From Bradyrhizobium sp. ORS 285 (GTDB lineage: Bacteria > Pseudomonadota > Alphaproteobacteria > Rhizobiales > Xanthobacteraceae): a stretch of 64,000 bases of DNA. Shown piece after piece: positions 710-14,223 of the stretch. The position numbers and the translations under genes were made by a program. The stretch lies in NCBI RefSeq assembly GCF_900176205.1, contig NZ_LT859959.1:1736001-1800000 (forward strand), written 5' to 3'. The notes below the pieces were generated by a model that saw only the letters and a list, made by a program, of their open reading frames with translations, had not been told where the DNA came from and did no database searches. Each line of letters begins with the position of its first letter. The first letter of the stretch is position 1.

Positions 710-725
710 TGTAACGTTTCTAACA
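710..725 (+). promoter_or_regulatory. NifA upstream activator site for nifB
   Basis: Perfect TGT-N10-ACA (TGTAACGTTTCTAACA). It lies about 100 bp upstream of the sigma54 promoter at 824, the normal spacing for DNA-looping activation by NifA. Confidence 0.85.
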
Positions 726-823
726 ACGCATCAAACGAGAGGCTTTCGCATGTTGGCAAGGCGACAGCCGCAATGATTTTGCTAAGGCGTTGATAGTCCG
801 AAGAAATGATCTTGTCCGCGGCG

Positions 824-839
824 TGGCACGCGAGTTGCT
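824..839 (+). promoter_or_regulatory. Sigma54 (-24/-12) promoter of the nifB operon
   Basis: TGGCACGCGAGTTGCT matches the RpoN consensus TGGCACG-N4-TTGCW at every fixed position. Predicted transcription start is about 850, some 40 nt before nifB. Confidence 0.92.
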
Positions 840-891: not shown

Positions 892-2454
892 ATGGACGCG
901 TCAGTGCAGCACGAACAGGCGACGATACCGGACGGCGACAAGCTGAGCTCGGTGATGCAGACCATCGCAGAACATAAGGGCTGCGGCACCTCGGGCGGCA
1001 GCGGCAAGGCGAGCTGCGGCTCGGGCGCCGGCGAGAACGACCTGCCGCCGGAGATATGGGAGAAGGTGAAGAACCATCCCTGCTACAGCGAGGAAGCGCA
1101 TCACCACTACGCGCGCATGCATGTCGCCGTGGCGCCCGCCTGCAACATCCAGTGCAACTACTGCAACCGCAAATATGACTGCGCCAACGAGTCGCGTCCG
1201 GGCGTCGTCAGCGAGAAGCTCTCGCCGGAGCAGGCCGCCAAGAAGGTGCTCGCGGTCGCCTCGACCATTCCGCAGATGACCGTGCTCGGCATCGCCGGCC
1301 CGGGTGATCCGCTCGCCAACCCCGAGAAGACCTTCAAGACCTTCGAGCTGATCGCGCGCACCGCGCCCGACATCAAGCTCTGCCTGTCGACCAACGGCCT
1401 CGCGCTGCCCGACCATGTCGACACCATCGCCGGCTTCAACGTCGACCACGTCACGATCACCATCAACATGGTCGATCCCGAGATCGGCGCGAAGATCTAT
1501 CCCTGGGTGTTCTGGAAGCACAAGCGCTACACCGGCGTTGAAGCGGCCAAGCTGCTGACCGACCGCCAGCTGCAGGGCCTGGAGATGCTGACCGAGCGCG
1601 GCATCCTCTGCAAGGTCAACTCGGTGATGATCCCCGGCGTCAACGACAAGCACCTCGTCGAGGTCAACAAGGCGGTGAAGTCGCGCGGCGCCTTCCTGCA
1701 CAACATCATGCCGCTGATCTCCTCGCCGGAGCACGGCACCGTGTTCGGCCTGACTGGCCAGCGCGGCCCGACCGCGCAGGAGCTGAAGGCGCTGCAGGAC
1801 GAGTGCGAAGGCGAGATGAACATGATGCGGCACTGCCGCCAGTGCCGCGCCGACGCTGTCGGCCTGCTCGGCGAGGACCGCTCGGCGGAGTTCACCACCG
1901 ACAAGATCATGGCGATGGAAGTGAACTACGACATCGACAGCCGCAAGGCCTATCAGGAGGCGGTCGAGAGCGAGCGCGTCGCCAAGGTCGTCGCCCGCCA
2001 GGAGGAGCTTGCCTCGCTCGCCGGCCAGTCCAGCGACATCAAGCTGCTGGTCGCGGTCGCGACCAAGGGCTCGGGCCTGATCAACGAGCATTTCGGCCAC
2101 GCCAAGGAGTTCCAGGTCTACGAACTCTCCACGGCCGGTGCGAAGTTCGTCGGTCACCGCCGCGTCGACCTGTACTGCCAGGGCGGCTATGGCGACGAGG
2201 ACAGCCTGGAGACCGTGATCCGCGCCATCAACGACTGCCATGCGGTGTTCGTAGCCAAGATCGGCGGCTGCCCGAAGAGCGATCTGCAGGCCGCCGGCAT
2301 CGAGCCCGTCGACCAGTTTGCCCATGAGTTCATCGAGAAGTCGGCGATCGCCTGGTTCAAGAGCTACCTGGACAAGGTCAACGGCGGGGAGATCCAGCAC
2401 GTCGTGCGCGGTGACGCCGAGATCCGCCAGGGCGCGCTGACCTCGGCGGCGTGA
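892..2454 (+). CDS. nifB: NifB, nitrogenase FeMo-cofactor biosynthesis radical SAM protein
   Basis: 520 aa. NifB builds the 8Fe-9S-C NifB-co core, the precursor of the iron-molybdenum cofactor. The radical SAM motif is C84-x3-C88-x2-C91 (CNIQCNYC), followed by GxGDPL-type SAM-binding sequence. A C-terminal NifX/NafY-like domain (about residues 385-510) is fused, as in most proteobacterial NifB. The ATG at 892 has AAGGAG 5-10 nt upstream. It is the first gene after the NifA site and sigma54 promoter and heads a colinear run of genes ending near 8375. Confidence 0.98.
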
Positions 2455-2509: not shown

Positions 2510-2734
2510 ATGACTTTGAAGATCATTGCCTCGCAATGCACGAGCTGCTCGGCCTGCGAGCCCGAATGTCCGAACGTGGCGATCTCCGAGAAGAACGGCA
2601 CCTTCGTGATCGACCCCAAGAAGTGCACCGAGTGCATCGGCCATTTCGACGAGCCGCAATGCGCCGCGGTCTGTCCGGTCGACAACACCTGCGTCATCGA
2701 CAATTCGTTCCCGCGCTATCAGCCGCCGGCCTGA
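2510..2734 (+). CDS. fdxN: 2[4Fe-4S] ferredoxin FdxN
   Basis: 74 aa. Eight cysteine ligands are visible in two sets, C10/C13/C16/C20 and C39/C42/C51/C55; the second set carries the C-x8-C spacer typical of the nif-linked FdxN (FrxA) type rather than clostridial ferredoxins. The known role of the family is electron supply to NifB or nitrogenase maturation. AGGAG lies just upstream of the ATG. It follows nifB by 55 bp and is only 10 bp from the next gene. Confidence 0.95.
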
Positions 2735-2744
2735 GGAGAGCCCG

Positions 2745-3074
2745 ATGAACTTTACGCTCACGCCAGCCGCGCAGAAGTTCATGCGCATGATGCTGCGGGC
2801 CGACGGCGCCGCCGGGGCCGGCTTCCGCCTTGCGGTGTCGCCGGGCGGCTGCTCGGGTCTCGCCGCCGACATCAGCGTCCTCGCCACGCCGCTCTCCGGA
2901 GACGCCGTGGTCGAGCGCGACGGCGTCAAGCTGTTCCTGCCGGCCGAGAGCCGGCTGCTGCTCGATGGCGTCACCATCGATTTCGCTGACACCGCCACCC
3001 AGACCGGACTCGTGTTCCATGATCCGAAACAGGTGTCGTGCTCCAGCCATGCCTTGAAGGCGCTGCAGGACTAG
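2745..3074 (+). CDS. A-type Fe-S assembly protein (HesB/IscA family), variant cysteines
   Basis: 109 aa, the usual length for IscA-type scaffold/carrier proteins. The first conserved cysteine is present (C36 in GGCSG) and the second (C99), but the C-terminal CGC motif reads CSS, so the third ligand (position 101) is Ser. It starts 10 bp after fdxN with GAGGAGAG upstream. Family members deliver or hold Fe-S clusters; in this operon the client would be NifB, FdxN or nitrogenase. The lost ligand makes its cluster chemistry uncertain. Confidence 0.9.
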   Translation: MNFTLTPAAQKFMRMMLRADGAAGAGFRLAVSPGGCSGLAADISVLATPLSGDAVVERDGVKLFLPAESRLLLDGVTIDFADTATQTGLVFHDPKQVSCSSHALKALQD

Positions 3075-3085
3075 GACAGCAGATC

Positions 3086-3619
3086 ATGCCGACCGATGCC
3101 CGGCCCAACTCCCAGACTGCCATCGAGGACGCGCTGCTTGCCGACGCGCTGCTCGGTGGCGGGCTGCCGGAAGAGGCCGAGCGTCAGCTGTGGCAGGCCA
3201 GTCAGAGCTATCATCTCGACGATGTCGCCGAGGCCCATCTGAAGCAGGCCGAAGCGCTGGCGCCGGATCATGCCGCGGTCCTGATCGGCTTCTATCGTTT
3301 CTACTTTTACAAGGGTCGCCTGAACGACGCGCTGCGCATCGCCAAGCGCTGCCTCGCCAAGGCCGCGGTCGAAAACCATTTGCCGCCGCATTGGCGCGAC
3401 GTCCGCCCCGAGCATGCCGAGTTCGGCAGCTTCGACCACATGCTGCCGCGCTTCTTCATGTTCACCTTGAAGGGTTACGCCTATCTGCAGATGCGGCTCG
3501 GCAATCTCGTCGAGGGGCGGCTGGCGGTGCAGAAGCTGCTCGACCTCGACCCCAGCGACAAGGTCGGCGCGCGCGTGCTGCTCGAGGTCGTCGACCGGGT
3601 GGAGCTCGACGATGAGTGA
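3086..3619 (+). CDS. Tetratricopeptide-repeat protein of the nif operon
   Basis: 177 aa from the ATG at 3086; an earlier in-frame ATG at 3038 would overlap the IscA-like gene by 37 bp and is less likely. Alpha-helical TPR-like sequence runs from about residue 40 to the end (for example HLKQAEALAPDHAAVLIGFY and KLLDLDPSDKVG). It overlaps the next gene by 8 bp. A paralogue lies at 10328-10819 on the other strand in a second sigma54 unit. TPR proteins usually hold partners together; the partners here are unknown. Confidence 0.85.
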   Translation: MPTDARPNSQTAIEDALLADALLGGGLPEEAERQLWQASQSYHLDDVAEAHLKQAEALAPDHAAVLIGFYRFYFYKGRLNDALRIAKRCLAKAAVENHLPPHWRDVRPEHAEFGSFDHMLPRFFMFTLKGYAYLQMRLGNLVEGRLAVQKLLDLDPSDKVGARVLLEVVDRVELDDE

Positions 3620-4385
3620 CGACATCGACGAAGCCATCGACTGGCAGGGCAACGAGATCAGCTGTGGCGGCTGCGCCCATGAGCAATTGAGCGCGGCCGG
3701 GGGCTGCAAGCTCCGCCACGCCTGCGTGCACGACCGCTATGCGCGGCGCATCGACCGCTTCTTCAACTGGAATCCGGCGCTCGCCAACGATTACGTCAAG
3801 CATCCGCATTTCGAGGTGCGCGCGATTGCGGCCAAGCATGCCAGCCCCTTCTACCTCCCGCCGCTGCTCGACGATCCCGAGGAGACCGTGCGCTGGAATG
3901 CGGCGCGGCGGCTGCCGAAGCGATTGGTGCTGCGGCTGCGCCATGATCCGCATCGCGAGGTCCGCATCCGCATTGCGACCGTGCTCGATCCCGAAGACCT
4001 GATGCCGATGATGATGGACGATGATTACTACGTCCGCCTCGTCGTCGCGCGCCGGATCGTGCCGTCCGTGCTCGGCCGCATGATGGGTGATCCCGAGGCC
4101 GAGGTCCGTCGCGTCGTCGCGCGCCGGATCCCGGGCGACTGGCTGCTCGGCATGATCAGCGATCCCGACGCGCGCGTGCGCCTCGAAATCGCGGAGCGCC
4201 TGGCGCCGGATCTGTTGACCGCCATGCGCAAGGATGCCGACTGGCGCGTACGCCATGAAGTGGCGAGCCGTATCCCGCTCGCGGAGCTCGCCGAGCTCGC
4301 GCGCGACGAGGATCCGCTGGTGCAGGAGATGGCGCGCGGCCGGCTCGACAACCGTTCGGGAGCTGCGATGGAGAAACCGGCATGA
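3612..4385 (+). CDS. 4Fe-4S-binding leucine-rich-variant (LRV) repeat protein
   Basis: 257 aa. The N-terminal cluster is C18-x2-C21-x10-C32-x5-C38, then about eight LRV/HEAT-like repeats with the periodic 'R..VA.RI....L..M..D...VR' pattern to about residue 245. This is the architecture of the Azotobacter vinelandii LRV protein, also found near nif genes. Its molecular function is not established. It overlaps the TPR gene upstream by 8 bp and nifZ downstream by 4 bp (ATGA), which suggests coupled translation. Confidence 0.9.
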   Translation: MSDDIDEAIDWQGNEISCGGCAHEQLSAAGGCKLRHACVHDRYARRIDRFFNWNPALANDYVKHPHFEVRAIAAKHASPFYLPPLLDDPEETVRWNAARRLPKRLVLRLRHDPHREVRIRIATVLDPEDLMPMMMDDDYYVRLVVARRIVPSVLGRMMGDPEAEVRRVVARRIPGDWLLGMISDPDARVRLEIAERLAPDLLTAMRKDADWRVRHEVASRIPLAELAELARDEDPLVQEMARGRLDNRSGAAMEKPA

Positions 4386-4705
4386 GCAACATCGTTCGTG
4401 ACAGCGAGGTCGTCGAGCTGTCGGCGCCGCCATACTTCACGTTCGGCGAGAAGGTGAAGGCGAAGCGCACGATCCGCAATGACGGCACCTATGCGGGCAA
4501 GGAGATCGGCGAGATCCTCGCGAAGAAGGGCGAGATCGGCTACGTCGTCTCGATCGGCACCTTCCTGCAGCAATTCTACATCTATGGCGTCGAGTTTCTG
4601 GAGAGCGGAAACCGCGTCGGCATGAAACGCAAGGAGCTCGAATCCACCGTTCCGCGTGGGGACGCGGAGGACGAACTGCCGCTGCCGGGAGCGTACAGGT
4701 CATGA
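4382..4705 (+). CDS. nifZ: NifZ, nitrogenase maturation protein
   Basis: 107 aa. It carries the SH3-like NifZ core: F-x-x-G-E-K-V-x-A-K, then NDGTYAGKEIG, KGEIGYVVSIGTFLQQFYIYGVEF. NifZ assists formation of the second P-cluster of the MoFe protein. It overlaps the LRV gene by 4 bp and the following NifZ-like gene by 4 bp. Confidence 0.95.
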   Translation: MSNIVRDSEVVELSAPPYFTFGEKVKAKRTIRNDGTYAGKEIGEILAKKGEIGYVVSIGTFLQQFYIYGVEFLESGNRVGMKRKELESTVPRGDAEDELPLPGAYRS

Positions 4706-4941
4706 TCGAACCGCGGATGCCGAAATACCAATGGGGTCAGCGCGTGAAGGCGCTGATCGACCTCGTCAATGACGGGTCGTTCCCGAACGCTCCGGCGGAG
4801 GCCAAGCTCGTCGGCGTCGGCGACATGGGCGAGATCGTCCAGGTCGGCACGCACACCGAGGCGAACATGCCGATCTATCTGGTCGAGTTCGGCGAGAAGC
4901 TGGTGGTGGGCTGTCTGGAAGAGGAGATCGTCCCGGTGTGA
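4702..4941 (+). CDS. Second, short NifZ-like protein
   Basis: 79 aa. It repeats the NifZ pattern (YQWGQRVKALIDLVNDGSF, GDMGEIVQVGTH, PIYLVEF) without the N-terminal extension, so it is a NifZ-family paralogue in tandem with nifZ. In other rhizobia the small gene at this place is called fixU; I cannot confirm that name from sequence. Starts on an ATGA overlap with nifZ. Confidence 0.85.
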   Translation: MIEPRMPKYQWGQRVKALIDLVNDGSFPNAPAEAKLVGVGDMGEIVQVGTHTEANMPIYLVEFGEKLVVGCLEEEIVPV

Positions 4942-4957
4942 GGGGCGATGATCAGCC

Positions 4958-5314
4958 ATGGCGGCAGCCGCGCTCAAGTCCAGTCTCATCCTGCCCGCGC
5001 ATCCCAACGAGTTGGATCGCAAGCGGATCGAGCGCGCGCTGAAGTCGCGCAAGCGCTACCGCTACGTCGAGCCGGCGGTCGTGCCGGTCGAAGAGGGTTA
5101 TCAGGTCCGCAGTCCGTGTTGCTCTCGCAACATCGACAAGGACGGCGGGGTGATCGACGTGGCGCTGCTGCGTCATGATCCCGCGAAGACGATGTGGAAG
5201 CTGTTCTGGAGAGATCACGCGAAGGGGATCTGGGAGCTGCACAGCGTGCACCAGCGGTTGACCGCGGCGGTCGACGAGCTGAACGCCGACCCCGCGCGGA
5301 TCTTCTGGCAGTAA
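4958..5314 (+). CDS. DUF3024-like small protein of the nif operon
   Basis: 118 aa. The C-terminal part, with LLRHDPAKTMWKLFWRDH followed by a DPARIFW ending, matches the pattern I know from the DUF3024 family. Function unknown. The ATG lies 16 bp after the NifZ-like gene; the following gene starts 17 bp after its stop. No cysteine cluster, though a CC pair (RSPCCSRN) is present. The position within the nifB operon suggests an accessory role in nitrogenase maturation (inference). Confidence 0.75.
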   Translation: MAAAALKSSLILPAHPNELDRKRIERALKSRKRYRYVEPAVVPVEEGYQVRSPCCSRNIDKDGGVIDVALLRHDPAKTMWKLFWRDHAKGIWELHSVHQRLTAAVDELNADPARIFWQ

Positions 5315-5331: not shown

Positions 5332-5592
5332 ATGGCATTGGCGGAGCAGGAACTGAATGAGATCGCGCAAGTCCTCGAGCAACCTGACGCCGGCAGCACG
5401 GCGTTCGGCGAGTTGCGCCGCCGCTTTCCCAAGCTGGTTCTGACGCGCTGCGACGCCTCCGATGTGACGGAGGCCCCGTTCCGCACCTACGCGGCGTTCG
5501 ACTTGCATCTGCTCGACGCCAGCGAGCATTGCGCTGGCGTGACCGACGATCCGGCCAAAGCCACCGGCCTGATTTTGGCCAAGCGGAGCTGA
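5332..5592 (+). CDS. Small conserved nif-operon protein (DUF6129-like)
   Basis: 86 aa from the ATG at 5332, which has a strong GAGGAGG 9 nt upstream; a longer in-frame reading from 5194 would run through the end of the previous gene and is rejected. The sequence resembles the small family annotated as DUF6129 in nif clusters (from memory). No cofactor motif or membrane segment. The following gene starts 2 bp after its stop. Confidence 0.7.
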   Translation: MALAEQELNEIAQVLEQPDAGSTAFGELRRRFPKLVLTRCDASDVTEAPFRTYAAFDLHLLDASEHCAGVTDDPAKATGLILAKRS

Positions 5593-5594
5593 TC

Positions 5595-6809
5595 ATGACC
5601 AAGCCCTATCTGGTGCATGACGCCGACAGGCAGGAGCAGGACGAGGTCGAGCTGACGCCGGTCGGCTCCGACTTCATCCCGCTGTCCGATCCCGACATCA
5701 CGACGGCGGAGATCGCAGCCGTTGAGGCGACCTTGCGCTCGCCGAGGCTGTCCACCGGTCCGCTCGTCGAAGAGTTCGAAGCGGCGTTCGCCGCCTATCT
5801 CGGGCGCAAATATGCCGTCGCGGTTCCGAGCGGGACGCTCGGCCTCCTGCTCGTGCTCAAGGCGATGGGGATCGGAGCCGGTGATGAGGTGATCGCATCG
5901 TCCTATTCGTTCCGCGAGGTCGCGCACGCGATCAGCATCGCCGGCGCCAAGCCGGTGTTTTCCGATATTGACTACTATTCCGGCACGCTGGCGCCCAGCA
6001 AGATCGAGGCGCGGATCACCGAGCGGACCAAGGCGATCCTCGCCGGCAACACCAACGGCCATCCCGCCAAATGGACCGAGCTGCAGGCGATCGCCAAGGC
6101 GCACGGTCTGCCGCTGATCGAGGATTCGAGCGAGGCGATCGGCTCGAAGTATCAGGGGGCCCTGGTCGGCACGTTCGGCGCGGCTTCGGTCTTCGACTTT
6201 TCGCAGCCATTCGCGCTGACCTGCGGCGAGGGCGGCATGATCGTCACCGACGACGTCGACATCGCGGTCGCGGTGCGCCGGCATCGCTCGCACCGCCTCG
6301 ACGAGCGGGCCTCGGTCGTTGTCTGCAGCACCCCGTCGCACCAGGCGGTGATGAGCGACGTCACCGCGGCGTTGGGACTTGCGCAATTGAAGCGCATCGA
6401 CGAGATCCTCGAGCGTCGCAAGCTGATCGAGCAGGTCTACTACAGCGAAGTGCAGTCGTTCGAAGGAATCAAGGATCCCTATGTCGGCCCTGACGTCACC
6501 GAGGTGAACTGGTTTCTCTACCAGGTGCATCTGGGGACGCGGTTCTCGAAATCGAGCCGTGACTCGATCGTCGAGGATCTCCGCGTCGAGCAGGTCGAGG
6601 CCGTCGCCTATTCCAATCCGCTGCATCTGCAGCGGCACTATTTCGACATGGGCTATCGTCGCGGTGACTATCTCGTGACCGAGAAGGTTGCCGACCGCGT
6701 CGTGGCCCTGCCGTTCCACGTCCATCTGACCACCGACCAGATCGCCTTCATCGTCGCGACGATGAAGGACGCCTCGGTCAATGTCGGAGCGGGCGCGGCA
6801 ATCTACTGA
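5595..6809 (+). CDS. DegT/DnrJ/EryC1-type aminotransferase homologue lacking the PLP lysine
   Basis: 404 aa from the ATG at 5595. The aspartate-aminotransferase fold (type I, sugar aminotransferase branch) is clear: SGTLGLLLVL at 79, GDEVI at 96, EDSSEA with the pyridine-binding Asp at 177, and CGEGGMIVTDD at 210. The position five residues before GEGG, where DegT proteins carry the Schiff-base lysine (SFxxxK), reads DFSQPF, with Phe206. It is therefore unlikely to be a normal transaminase. It sits inside the nifB operon, 2 bp after the previous gene. Role unknown; a binding or scaffolding role, or a PLP-independent reaction, are possibilities. Confidence 0.88.
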   Translation: MTKPYLVHDADRQEQDEVELTPVGSDFIPLSDPDITTAEIAAVEATLRSPRLSTGPLVEEFEAAFAAYLGRKYAVAVPSGTLGLLLVLKAMGIGAGDEVIASSYSFREVAHAISIAGAKPVFSDIDYYSGTLAPSKIEARITERTKAILAGNTNGHPAKWTELQAIAKAHGLPLIEDSSEAIGSKYQGALVGTFGAASVFDFSQPFALTCGEGGMIVTDDVDIAVAVRRHRSHRLDERASVVVCSTPSHQAVMSDVTAALGLAQLKRIDEILERRKLIEQVYYSEVQSFEGIKDPYVGPDVTEVNWFLYQVHLGTRFSKSSRDSIVEDLRVEQVEAVAYSNPLHLQRHYFDMGYRRGDYLVTEKVADRVVALPFHVHLTTDQIAFIVATMKDASVNVGAGAAIY

Positions 6810-6846: not shown

Positions 6847-7155
6847 ATGGCAACTCTGACAGTCATGCCCTCCGGCAAGACGATCGAGGTGGGCGAGGGC
6901 ACCACCATTCTCGCGGCGCTGCTCGCCGCCGAGGTCGAAATCCCGCACAAGTGCGAGGGGCAGGCCAAGTGCGGCTCCTGCCACATCTTCCTGCAGGAGG
7001 GCCGCAAGGGCGTGTCGAAGGTCAGCAAGCTCGAGAACGAGAAGCTCGATAGCATCGTCGGCGTCGGCTCCAAGTCCCGCCTCGCCTGCCAGGCCATCAT
7101 TCTCGGCACCGAGAACGTCAAGATCGAGCTGCTCGGCTTCGGCTCGGGCTTGTAA
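6847..7155 (+). CDS. fdxB: [2Fe-2S] ferredoxin FdxB-type
   Basis: 102 aa. Ligands C36-x5-C42-x2-C45-x35-C81, the adrenodoxin/plant-type arrangement, with little extra sequence. nif-linked FdxB proteins act in electron transfer or Fe-S supply. AAGGAG precedes the ATG by 7 nt. It is separated from the DegT-like gene by 37 bp with no visible promoter, so it belongs to the same operon. Confidence 0.9.
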   Translation: MATLTVMPSGKTIEVGEGTTILAALLAAEVEIPHKCEGQAKCGSCHIFLQEGRKGVSKVSKLENEKLDSIVGVGSKSRLACQAIILGTENVKIELLGFGSGL

Positions 7156-7167
7156 TAGGAGGATCCC

Positions 7168-7380
7168 ATGGACAACATCACGCTTCACGTTCGTTTTGCC
7201 CCGGACGGCACCGTCGCCGAGATCAGCGAACGGCCGGCGACCTTGACGCCGCAGCAATGGTTCAACAAGCTCAGCGAGGCGATCGGCCTGAAGGCCTACC
7301 AGACCTTTGCCGGCGGCCGCGGCGTGTTCAAGACGACGCGCGATCAGGTCGAGGCGCTGAAGGCCACGGCCGCTGCGTGA
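7168..7380 (+). CDS. Small hypothetical nif-operon protein
   Basis: 70 aa, start supported by AGGAGG 6-7 nt upstream. Sequence begins MDNITLHVRFAPDG and ends in an Ala-rich tail; contains no cysteines, no membrane segment and no motif I recognise. Its TGA overlaps a possible GTG start of the next frame (7377), and it lies between fdxB and other small nif-operon genes. Confidence 0.75.
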   Translation: MDNITLHVRFAPDGTVAEISERPATLTPQQWFNKLSEAIGLKAYQTFAGGRGVFKTTRDQVEALKATAAA

Positions 7381-13153: not shown

Positions 13154-13169
13154 TGGCACAGCCGTTGCA
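13154..13169 (+). promoter_or_regulatory. Sigma54 promoter of nifH
   Basis: TGGCACAGCCGTTGCA: perfect TGGCAC at -24 and TTGCA at -12. Predicted start about 13180, giving a leader of about 155 nt before the nifH ATG. Confidence 0.92.

Positions 13170-13245: not shown

Positions 13246-14223
<978 letters not shown>

Follow-up and report, generated by a model that had tools for sequence, protein, structure and literature searches.

The window (the 64-kb stretch of DNA that we analyzed) contains a nifB operon, and this operon includes a gene for a DegT-like protein that lacks the Schiff-base lysine of DegT enzymes. From nifB through an open reading frame of 70 amino acids, all of the genes are on the + strand, and no two neighbors are separated by more than 55 bases. 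The features of the locus are as follows.

710..725, +: TGT-N10-ACA sequence that resembles a NifA upstream activator site (pattern scan)
751..766, +: second TGT-N10-ACA sequence that resembles a NifA upstream activator site (pattern scan)
824..838, +: sigma54 -24/-12 promoter sequence before nifB, TGGCACGCGAGTTGC, zero mismatches
892..2454, +: nifB (TIGR01290, 688 bits versus a cut-off of 344)
2510..2734, +: 2[4Fe-4S] ferredoxin (translation), which we take to be FdxN-like from its cysteine pattern and its position
2745..3074, +: IscA/SufA-like carrier (TIGR00049, 62.4 versus a cut-off of 58.8)
3086..3619, +: TPR protein (PF14559)
3612..4385, +: LRV FeS4 / leucine-rich repeat variant protein (PF05484 and PF01816)
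4382..4705, +: NifZ (PF04319)
4702..4941, +: second, short NifZ-like protein (translation; its counterpart in locus L102 is annotated as NifZ)
4958..5314, +: DUF3024 protein (PF11225)
5332..5592, +: small DUF6129 protein (PF19624, 24 bits, just over the cut-off of 23.6)
5595..6809, +: lysine-less DegT-like protein, the subject of this report (translation, alignment, and profile search)
6195..6212, +: codons 201-206 of the DegT-like gene, DFSQPF, with Asp201 in place of the canonical serine and F206 in place of the Schiff-base lysine
6762..6806, +: conserved, family-specific C-terminal tail of the DegT-like protein, residues 390-404, consensus MKDASINVGAGAAIY (alignment of 277 sequences)
6847..7155, +: [2Fe-2S] ferredoxin (PF00111)
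7168..7380, +: conserved open reading frame of 70 amino acids, orf73 (translation and comparison of loci)

The DUF6129 gene and the DegT-like gene that follows it are 2 bp apart. The DegT-like gene is an intact open reading frame: it translates to 404 amino acids, from ATG to TGA, with no internal stops. Residues 34-390 match the Pfam family DegT_DnrJ_EryC1 (PF01041) with a score of 312.5 bits (the gathering score is 19.8), which is a match to the full length of the fold.

The original prediction placed this gene in a NifA-driven operon. The nifB operon does have a perfect -24/-12 sequence upstream of it, along with two sequences that fit TGT-N10-ACA (which we take to be the NifA site pattern), but the numbers of such sites are not above chance. 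Allowing up to two mismatches, the -24/-12 pattern was found 67 times in the 64-kb window, as compared to an expectation of 67.0. TGT-N10-ACA occurs eight times in the window and four times in its first 9 kb; two of these four sites are inside genes (at 2672 and 5117). Because these totals are unremarkable, just the placement of the sites before nifB is suggestive, and control of the DegT-like gene by NifA is plausible. The window contains two -24/-12 sites with zero mismatches. The second (13154-13168) is about 100 bases upstream of an open reading frame (13267-14223) that looks nifH-like by eye.

We compared the neighbors of nifB in hand-chosen loci with the DegT-like gene (12 named loci and 20 of the 40 carrier genomes described below) and without it (20 of 36 regions, most of which span about 9 kb on each side of nifB). 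DUF6129 was present in 30 of the 32 loci with the DegT-like gene and in 7 of the 20 loci without it. The [2Fe-2S] ferredoxin was present in 28 of 32 versus 0 of 20 (Fisher p = 8e-11, uncorrected for relatedness). A strict pairing of the DegT-like protein with the ferredoxin is refuted by the other four loci (L049, L051, L053, and L067), which have no ferredoxin match at the cut-off.

Some neighbors vary. In the window, a protein with a SIR2-like domain (PF13289) is encoded before nifB (30-632); in other nif clusters, a homologue (annotated as a SIR2 family protein in some of them) directly follows the DegT-like gene or lies at another place around nifB. On plasmids of Methylococcus and of Paraburkholderia aromaticivorans, the nifB operon includes nifT and a class V enzyme that resembles cysteine desulfurases (L102, 5322-6473, and L105, 4820-5965). 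In P. sprentiae (L104), just an open reading frame of 139 amino acids is annotated at the position of the class V enzyme, and in the window we saw no class V enzyme between nifB and the ferredoxin.

The lysine column and the rest of the cofactor pocket

Residue 206 of the DegT-like protein is phenylalanine (codon TTC at 6210-6212). In alignments with solved DegT enzymes, this residue falls in the column of the Schiff-base lysine: FDFSQPF aligns with FSFHAIK of ArnB, which ends in Lys188, presumably the PLP lysine of that enzyme. The replacement of the lysine by F206, as first read from the sequence of this one protein, is thus correct. Across the query and its best 120 listed matches, the column contains S in 85 sequences, F in 19, L in 6, C in 6, and A in 5, and lysine is found in none of the 121.

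We also assembled a larger family set of 290 rows, from two protein searches (the best 120 listed matches of each) and from 48 loci. Once rows that are identical over the shared core are merged, 277 sequences remain, including the window's own. (Four carriers that gave no locus, G608, G543, G660, and G385, were left out; the match in G385 covers residues 165-404 only.) In the 277 sequences, column 206 is S in 137, G in 53, A in 37, F in 33, L in 7, C in 6, and Q in 4, and it is never lysine or histidine. Nor has the lysine been displaced to a nearby position, as none of the 277 sequences has a lysine anywhere in columns 196-216. Because the lysine is absent from 121 of 121 and from 277 of 277 sequences, F206 is not due to chance or to a sequencing error. 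On the other hand, the suggestion that phenylalanine might be fixed in the nif-linked clade is contradicted by the counts above. Judging from the variety of residues, the lysine position is little constrained in this family and drifts among unrelated residues; in an alignment of 98 members, it is at the 25th percentile of conservation.

For comparison with the family, we used 13 canonical rows. The lysine column holds lysine in 11 of them and histidine in the other 2 (L100 and L101). This outgroup was drawn from 13 matches, from which four family members and also L093 and L094 (wrong reading frames) were excluded, and 6 further rows were hand-picked from 40 listed plasmid matches. In a FastTree phylogeny of 48 family proteins and the 13 canonical proteins, the branch that separates the two groups has a length of 0.70 and a support of 1.0 in the unrooted tree (the value of 0.616 at the family node is an effect of re-rooting). 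On this tree, the family is monophyletic within the DegT fold and separate from the canonical members. There is also a gap in similarity: among the 40 plasmid records listed out of 713, four are 53-68% identical to the query, and identity then drops to 37% or less. On inspection, all four of the records at 53-68% identity are nif-linked.

The best solved relatives are perosamine synthetases and ArnB (3bn1, 3dr4, 8sng, and 1mdo). The family resembles these sugar aminotransferases (GDP-perosamine synthetase and ArnB type, PF01041) across the full length of the fold, and it retains several of their conserved features. The ring-facing aspartate of the ED motif, D177, is present in 276 of the 277 distinct sequences (and in 98/98 of the smaller alignment), and E180 is present in all 277. 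The stacking aromatic residue at column 106 is F in 176, W in 99, and Y in 1 of the 277. The SGT loop is mostly kept (S79 in 267, G80 in 264, and T81 in 231 of 277), as is GEGG, and the window protein has CGEGG.

In contrast to these relatives, the family has no Schiff-base lysine, sits in a nif operon, and has lost other parts of the pocket. Five residues before the lysine column (K-5), DegT enzymes have a serine that contacts the phosphate. This position, column 201, is serine in 12 of the 13 canonical rows and alanine in the other, but it is aspartate in all 277 family sequences. Similarly, the GYNxR segment of DegT enzymes is given across the dimer and helps to hold the phosphate. In the family, Gly248 and Arg252 of this segment (248-252) are lost (98 family versus 13 canonical rows), and its asparagine (column 250) survives in 7 of the 277 sequences, while 233 have Gln there. 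Column 152 is His in 10 of 13 canonical rows versus Asn in 97 of 98 family rows. Overall, the canonical residues that are missing from the family include K206, S201, H152, G248, and R252, along with others (98 versus 13 rows). The markers of the DegT family had been described as intact; this holds for Asp177, SGT, and CGEGG, but not for the K-5 serine or for GYNxR.

The altered pocket is nevertheless conserved within the family. When columns are ranked by conservation over the 98 aligned members, D177, E180, and D201 fall at percentiles 90-91, and N152, H156, and W160 fall at percentiles 96-100. N152, N154, W160, and D201 are specific to the family when compared to the canonical rows. Because these neighbors rank so much higher than column 206 (25th percentile), the pocket region is remodeled and constrained, rather than simply relaxed.

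The family also has an added C-terminal tail, with the consensus KDASINVGAGAAIY. N396, G398, A399, and I403 are each present in 276 of 277 sequences, and G400 is present in all 277. The tail of the Rhodoblastus protein (L010) departs from the motif. The last residue is other than tyrosine (Tyr404 in the window) in 84 of 277 sequences; 25 of these are listed, each with one extra leucine. No comparable tail is present in the 13 canonical rows. A tail that is nearly invariant could be a docking peptide.

Linkage to nif genes and selection

We searched 295 genomes of the window's taxonomic family and counted a genome as a carrier of the DegT-like gene at a threshold of E = 1e-60. The gene was found in 34 genomes, and nifB was found in 70. 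Carriers made up 34 of the 70 genomes with nifB but 0 of the 225 genomes without it (Fisher p = 2e-25, with related genomes treated as independent). The genome samples were drawn evenly, and related genomes within them are not independent. A class-wide search found carriers in 4 of 385 genomes and a phylum-wide search in 6 of 398, and these searches overlap. All 40 carriers from the genome-set searches have nifB. Apart from the 34 carriers of the taxonomic family search, 13 of 13 others have nifB (6 from outside the taxonomic family and the 7 genomes behind L006-L012); the L012 genome was probably already counted, because its nifB is at the same contig coordinates as that of G465. In two of the 40 carriers (G595 and G431), the DegT-like gene and nifB are on different contigs. 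In all 38 pairs that could be placed, the two genes are on the same strand, and the matched stretches are 1,976-4,692 bp apart.

The named carriers include Bradyrhizobium (among them the photosynthetic strain BTAi1), Paracraurococcus, Nitrospirillum (N. amazonense), Rhodoblastus, Azorhizobium, Methylococcus, and Paraburkholderia, and the linkage to nifB recurs across Alpha-, Beta-, and Gammaproteobacteria. A similar operon is found on two named Paraburkholderia plasmids and on one Methylococcus plasmid. However, 36 of the 70 genomes with nifB in the window's taxonomic family have no match to the gene (at E = 1e-60). Because of these genomes, we consider the gene to be accessory: nitrogenase maturation does not generally depend on it.

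As a strict marker of nitrogen fixation outside of nodules, the gene fails. Among 10 genomes of the window's genus with nifB, nodA was found in all 4 non-carriers and in 4 of the 6 carriers; the six include the window's genome. The nodA match there (G000:C1:1360069-1360650), which exceeds the family cut-off, lies about 375 kb away from the window. For nifV, 9 of these 10 genomes have a match that exceeds the cut-off.

Within the genus, the DegT-like gene has dN/dS ratios of 0.080, 0.074, 0.115, and 0.215 when compared to L003, L004, L017, and L061, respectively. These ratios are within the range of the operon neighbors and show purifying selection on the gene within the genus. Also, there are no internal stops across the 40 matched stretches from the genome-set searches. 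A broken and unannotated copy is present at roughly 6.7-8.0 kb of locus L103, on a plasmid (NZ_CP136627.1) of Bradyrhizobium sp. BWA-3-5, which is a peanut-nodule strain. This strain still has nifB, NifZ, DUF6129, and nifV.

Candidate functions of the DegT-like protein

Ordinary transamination is very unlikely because the Schiff-base lysine is missing from every member of the clade that we examined. The usual aminotransferase reaction needs this lysine, so the aminotransferase name in the databases is very likely wrong. Where the listed matches carry a name, it is mostly that of a perosamine synthetase, a DegT aminotransferase, or a dTDP-4-amino-4,6-dideoxygalactose transaminase, and most of the rest are named hypothetical protein. 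A conserved nif accessory protein is therefore hidden under a function that is probably wrong.

We propose that the protein is probably a nif-dedicated pseudo-aminotransferase whose pocket was remodeled, which gave up PLP chemistry, and which serves as an accessory factor for maturation or protection. The protein would keep the dimer of DegT enzymes. Covalent binding of PLP in its remodeled pocket would be lost, and the pocket may be occupied by another ligand or be empty. The protein would be made along with NifB, NifZ, and the iron-sulfur carriers under the control of NifA. It would be a non-catalytic factor, and its most likely mode of action is to bind a partner via a conserved surface or via the tail during the maturation or protection of the nitrogenase cofactor or the P-cluster. 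NifZ, the LRV-FeS protein, and other accessory factors of the nifB operon share the operon with this protein and presumably its regulation, but by profile search they belong to protein families other than DegT.

The original prediction was of a non-transaminase role in nitrogenase maturation. Given the 277 sequences without the lysine, the first part of this is supported; maturation is not singled out, as protection or regulation would explain the linkage to nif just as well. A conserved pocket is more in keeping with ligand binding, or even with catalysis, than with a pure scaffold. We offer a more specific scheme tentatively: in diazotrophic Alpha-, Beta-, and Gammaproteobacteria, the rebuilt pocket (Asp201, N152, N154, W160, and the lost lysine) might hold a ligand or an assembly intermediate of nitrogenase maturation, and the protein might work with DUF6129 and the [2Fe-2S] ferredoxin, with its tail docking it to the machinery that assembles nitrogenase.

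The main rival is a working B6 enzyme. ColD and E1 are catalytic members of the DegT family that lack the lysine and have histidine in its place. An enzyme of this kind would use PMP or PLP without a Schiff base, for a dehydration, a transamination half-reaction, or a radical step, with the [2Fe-2S] ferredoxin as the electron donor perhaps. The ferredoxin's occurrence with the DegT-like gene across loci, as described above, is consistent with this, and the retained D177, stacking aromatic residue, and mostly intact SGT loop could hold a B6 ring non-covalently. The query matches the solved entries 3gr9 and 3bb8, and, like the PMP-dependent 3-dehydratases ColD and E1 (RfbH type), the family has a DegT fold without the lysine and an acidic residue at column 180. 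Glu180 is not a mark of the ColD type, however, because perosamine synthetase shares it, and we rejected it as a marker. Histidine does occur at the lysine column in the two outgroup rows mentioned above. But in the nif-linked family, unlike in ColD and E1, this column is variable and is never histidine, and the K-5 serine has also gone, with Asp201 at the position that would contact the phosphate and with GYNxR lost. ColD and E1 also rank below the perosamine synthetases and ArnB as solved matches. Because of the variable residue, the lack of histidine, and Asp201, we consider a lysine-independent B6 enzyme to be less likely than a pseudo-aminotransferase, and rather unlikely overall.

We also think it unlikely that the pocket is a sensor or a carrier of some other small molecule, such as a non-phosphorylated ring compound, a sugar, or an organic acid, that tunes or feeds cofactor assembly. 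The strong conservation of N152, H156, W160, D177, E180, and D201, several of which are specific to the family, would be expected of such a pocket. On the other hand, the homologues do not suggest any ligand, and the pocket columns were assigned from canonical motifs.

Another alternative is that the Schiff-base lysine moved elsewhere in the fold, for instance to K293 or K391. These lysines are present in 98/98 and 97/98 family members, respectively, while at most 1 of the 13 canonical rows has lysine at either column. Both are far from the motif in the sequence, however, K391 adjoins the C-terminal tail, and we know of no solved relative with a Schiff-base lysine at a K293-like or K391-like position; we view a moved lysine as highly improbable. 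Least credible of all is that the gene is decaying: the broken copy from the peanut-nodule strain, the partial match in G385, and the 36 genomes with nifB but no match would fit decay, but the purifying selection seen in the genus contradicts it, as do the uninterrupted matched stretches and the motifs that are invariant across classes.

If the protein is indeed a pseudo-aminotransferase that acts in maturation or protection, then it would be a candidate part for efforts to move nitrogen fixation into new hosts. The family would also be a clear-cut example from nature of a B6 enzyme fold in which the cofactor chemistry was lost and the pocket region afterward stayed under strong constraint.

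In the open-licence literature on DegT with nif or nitrogenase, we found no remark on the missing lysine of the nif-linked DegT protein. Besides PMC3899966, described below, the listing for this topic gave PMC13178142, PMC9009326, and PMC10910104, in each of which DegT comes up once. The portions of an aminotransferase review and of a PLP-enzyme review that we consulted do not mention DegT. A 2011 list of nitrogen-fixation genes of Bradyrhizobium ORS278 includes BRADO5411, a putative DegT aminotransferase, along with BRADO5410 (2Fe-2S ferredoxin), BRADO5414 (NifZ domain), and BRADO5416 (LRV) (PMC3899966). Judging by these list neighbors alone, BRADO5411 is likely to be the same gene as ours; the entry calls it a putative aminotransferase and mentions neither a missing lysine nor a remodeled pocket (PMC3899966). 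The same paper describes BRADO5414, BRADO5416, BRADO5418, and BRADO5424 as an operon that is kept in nod-independent strains and in Azorhizobium caulinodans, though not in three classical rhizobia; BRADO5411 is in the gene list but is not named in the sentence about the operon (PMC3899966). The paper's remark on free-living fixers is suggestive only as to a link between the DegT-like gene and fixation outside of nodules (PMC3899966). In the stem-nodule bacteroids of A. caulinodans, the cluster of BRADO5414, BRADO5416, BRADO5418, and BRADO5424 is reported there to be up-regulated (PMC3899966).
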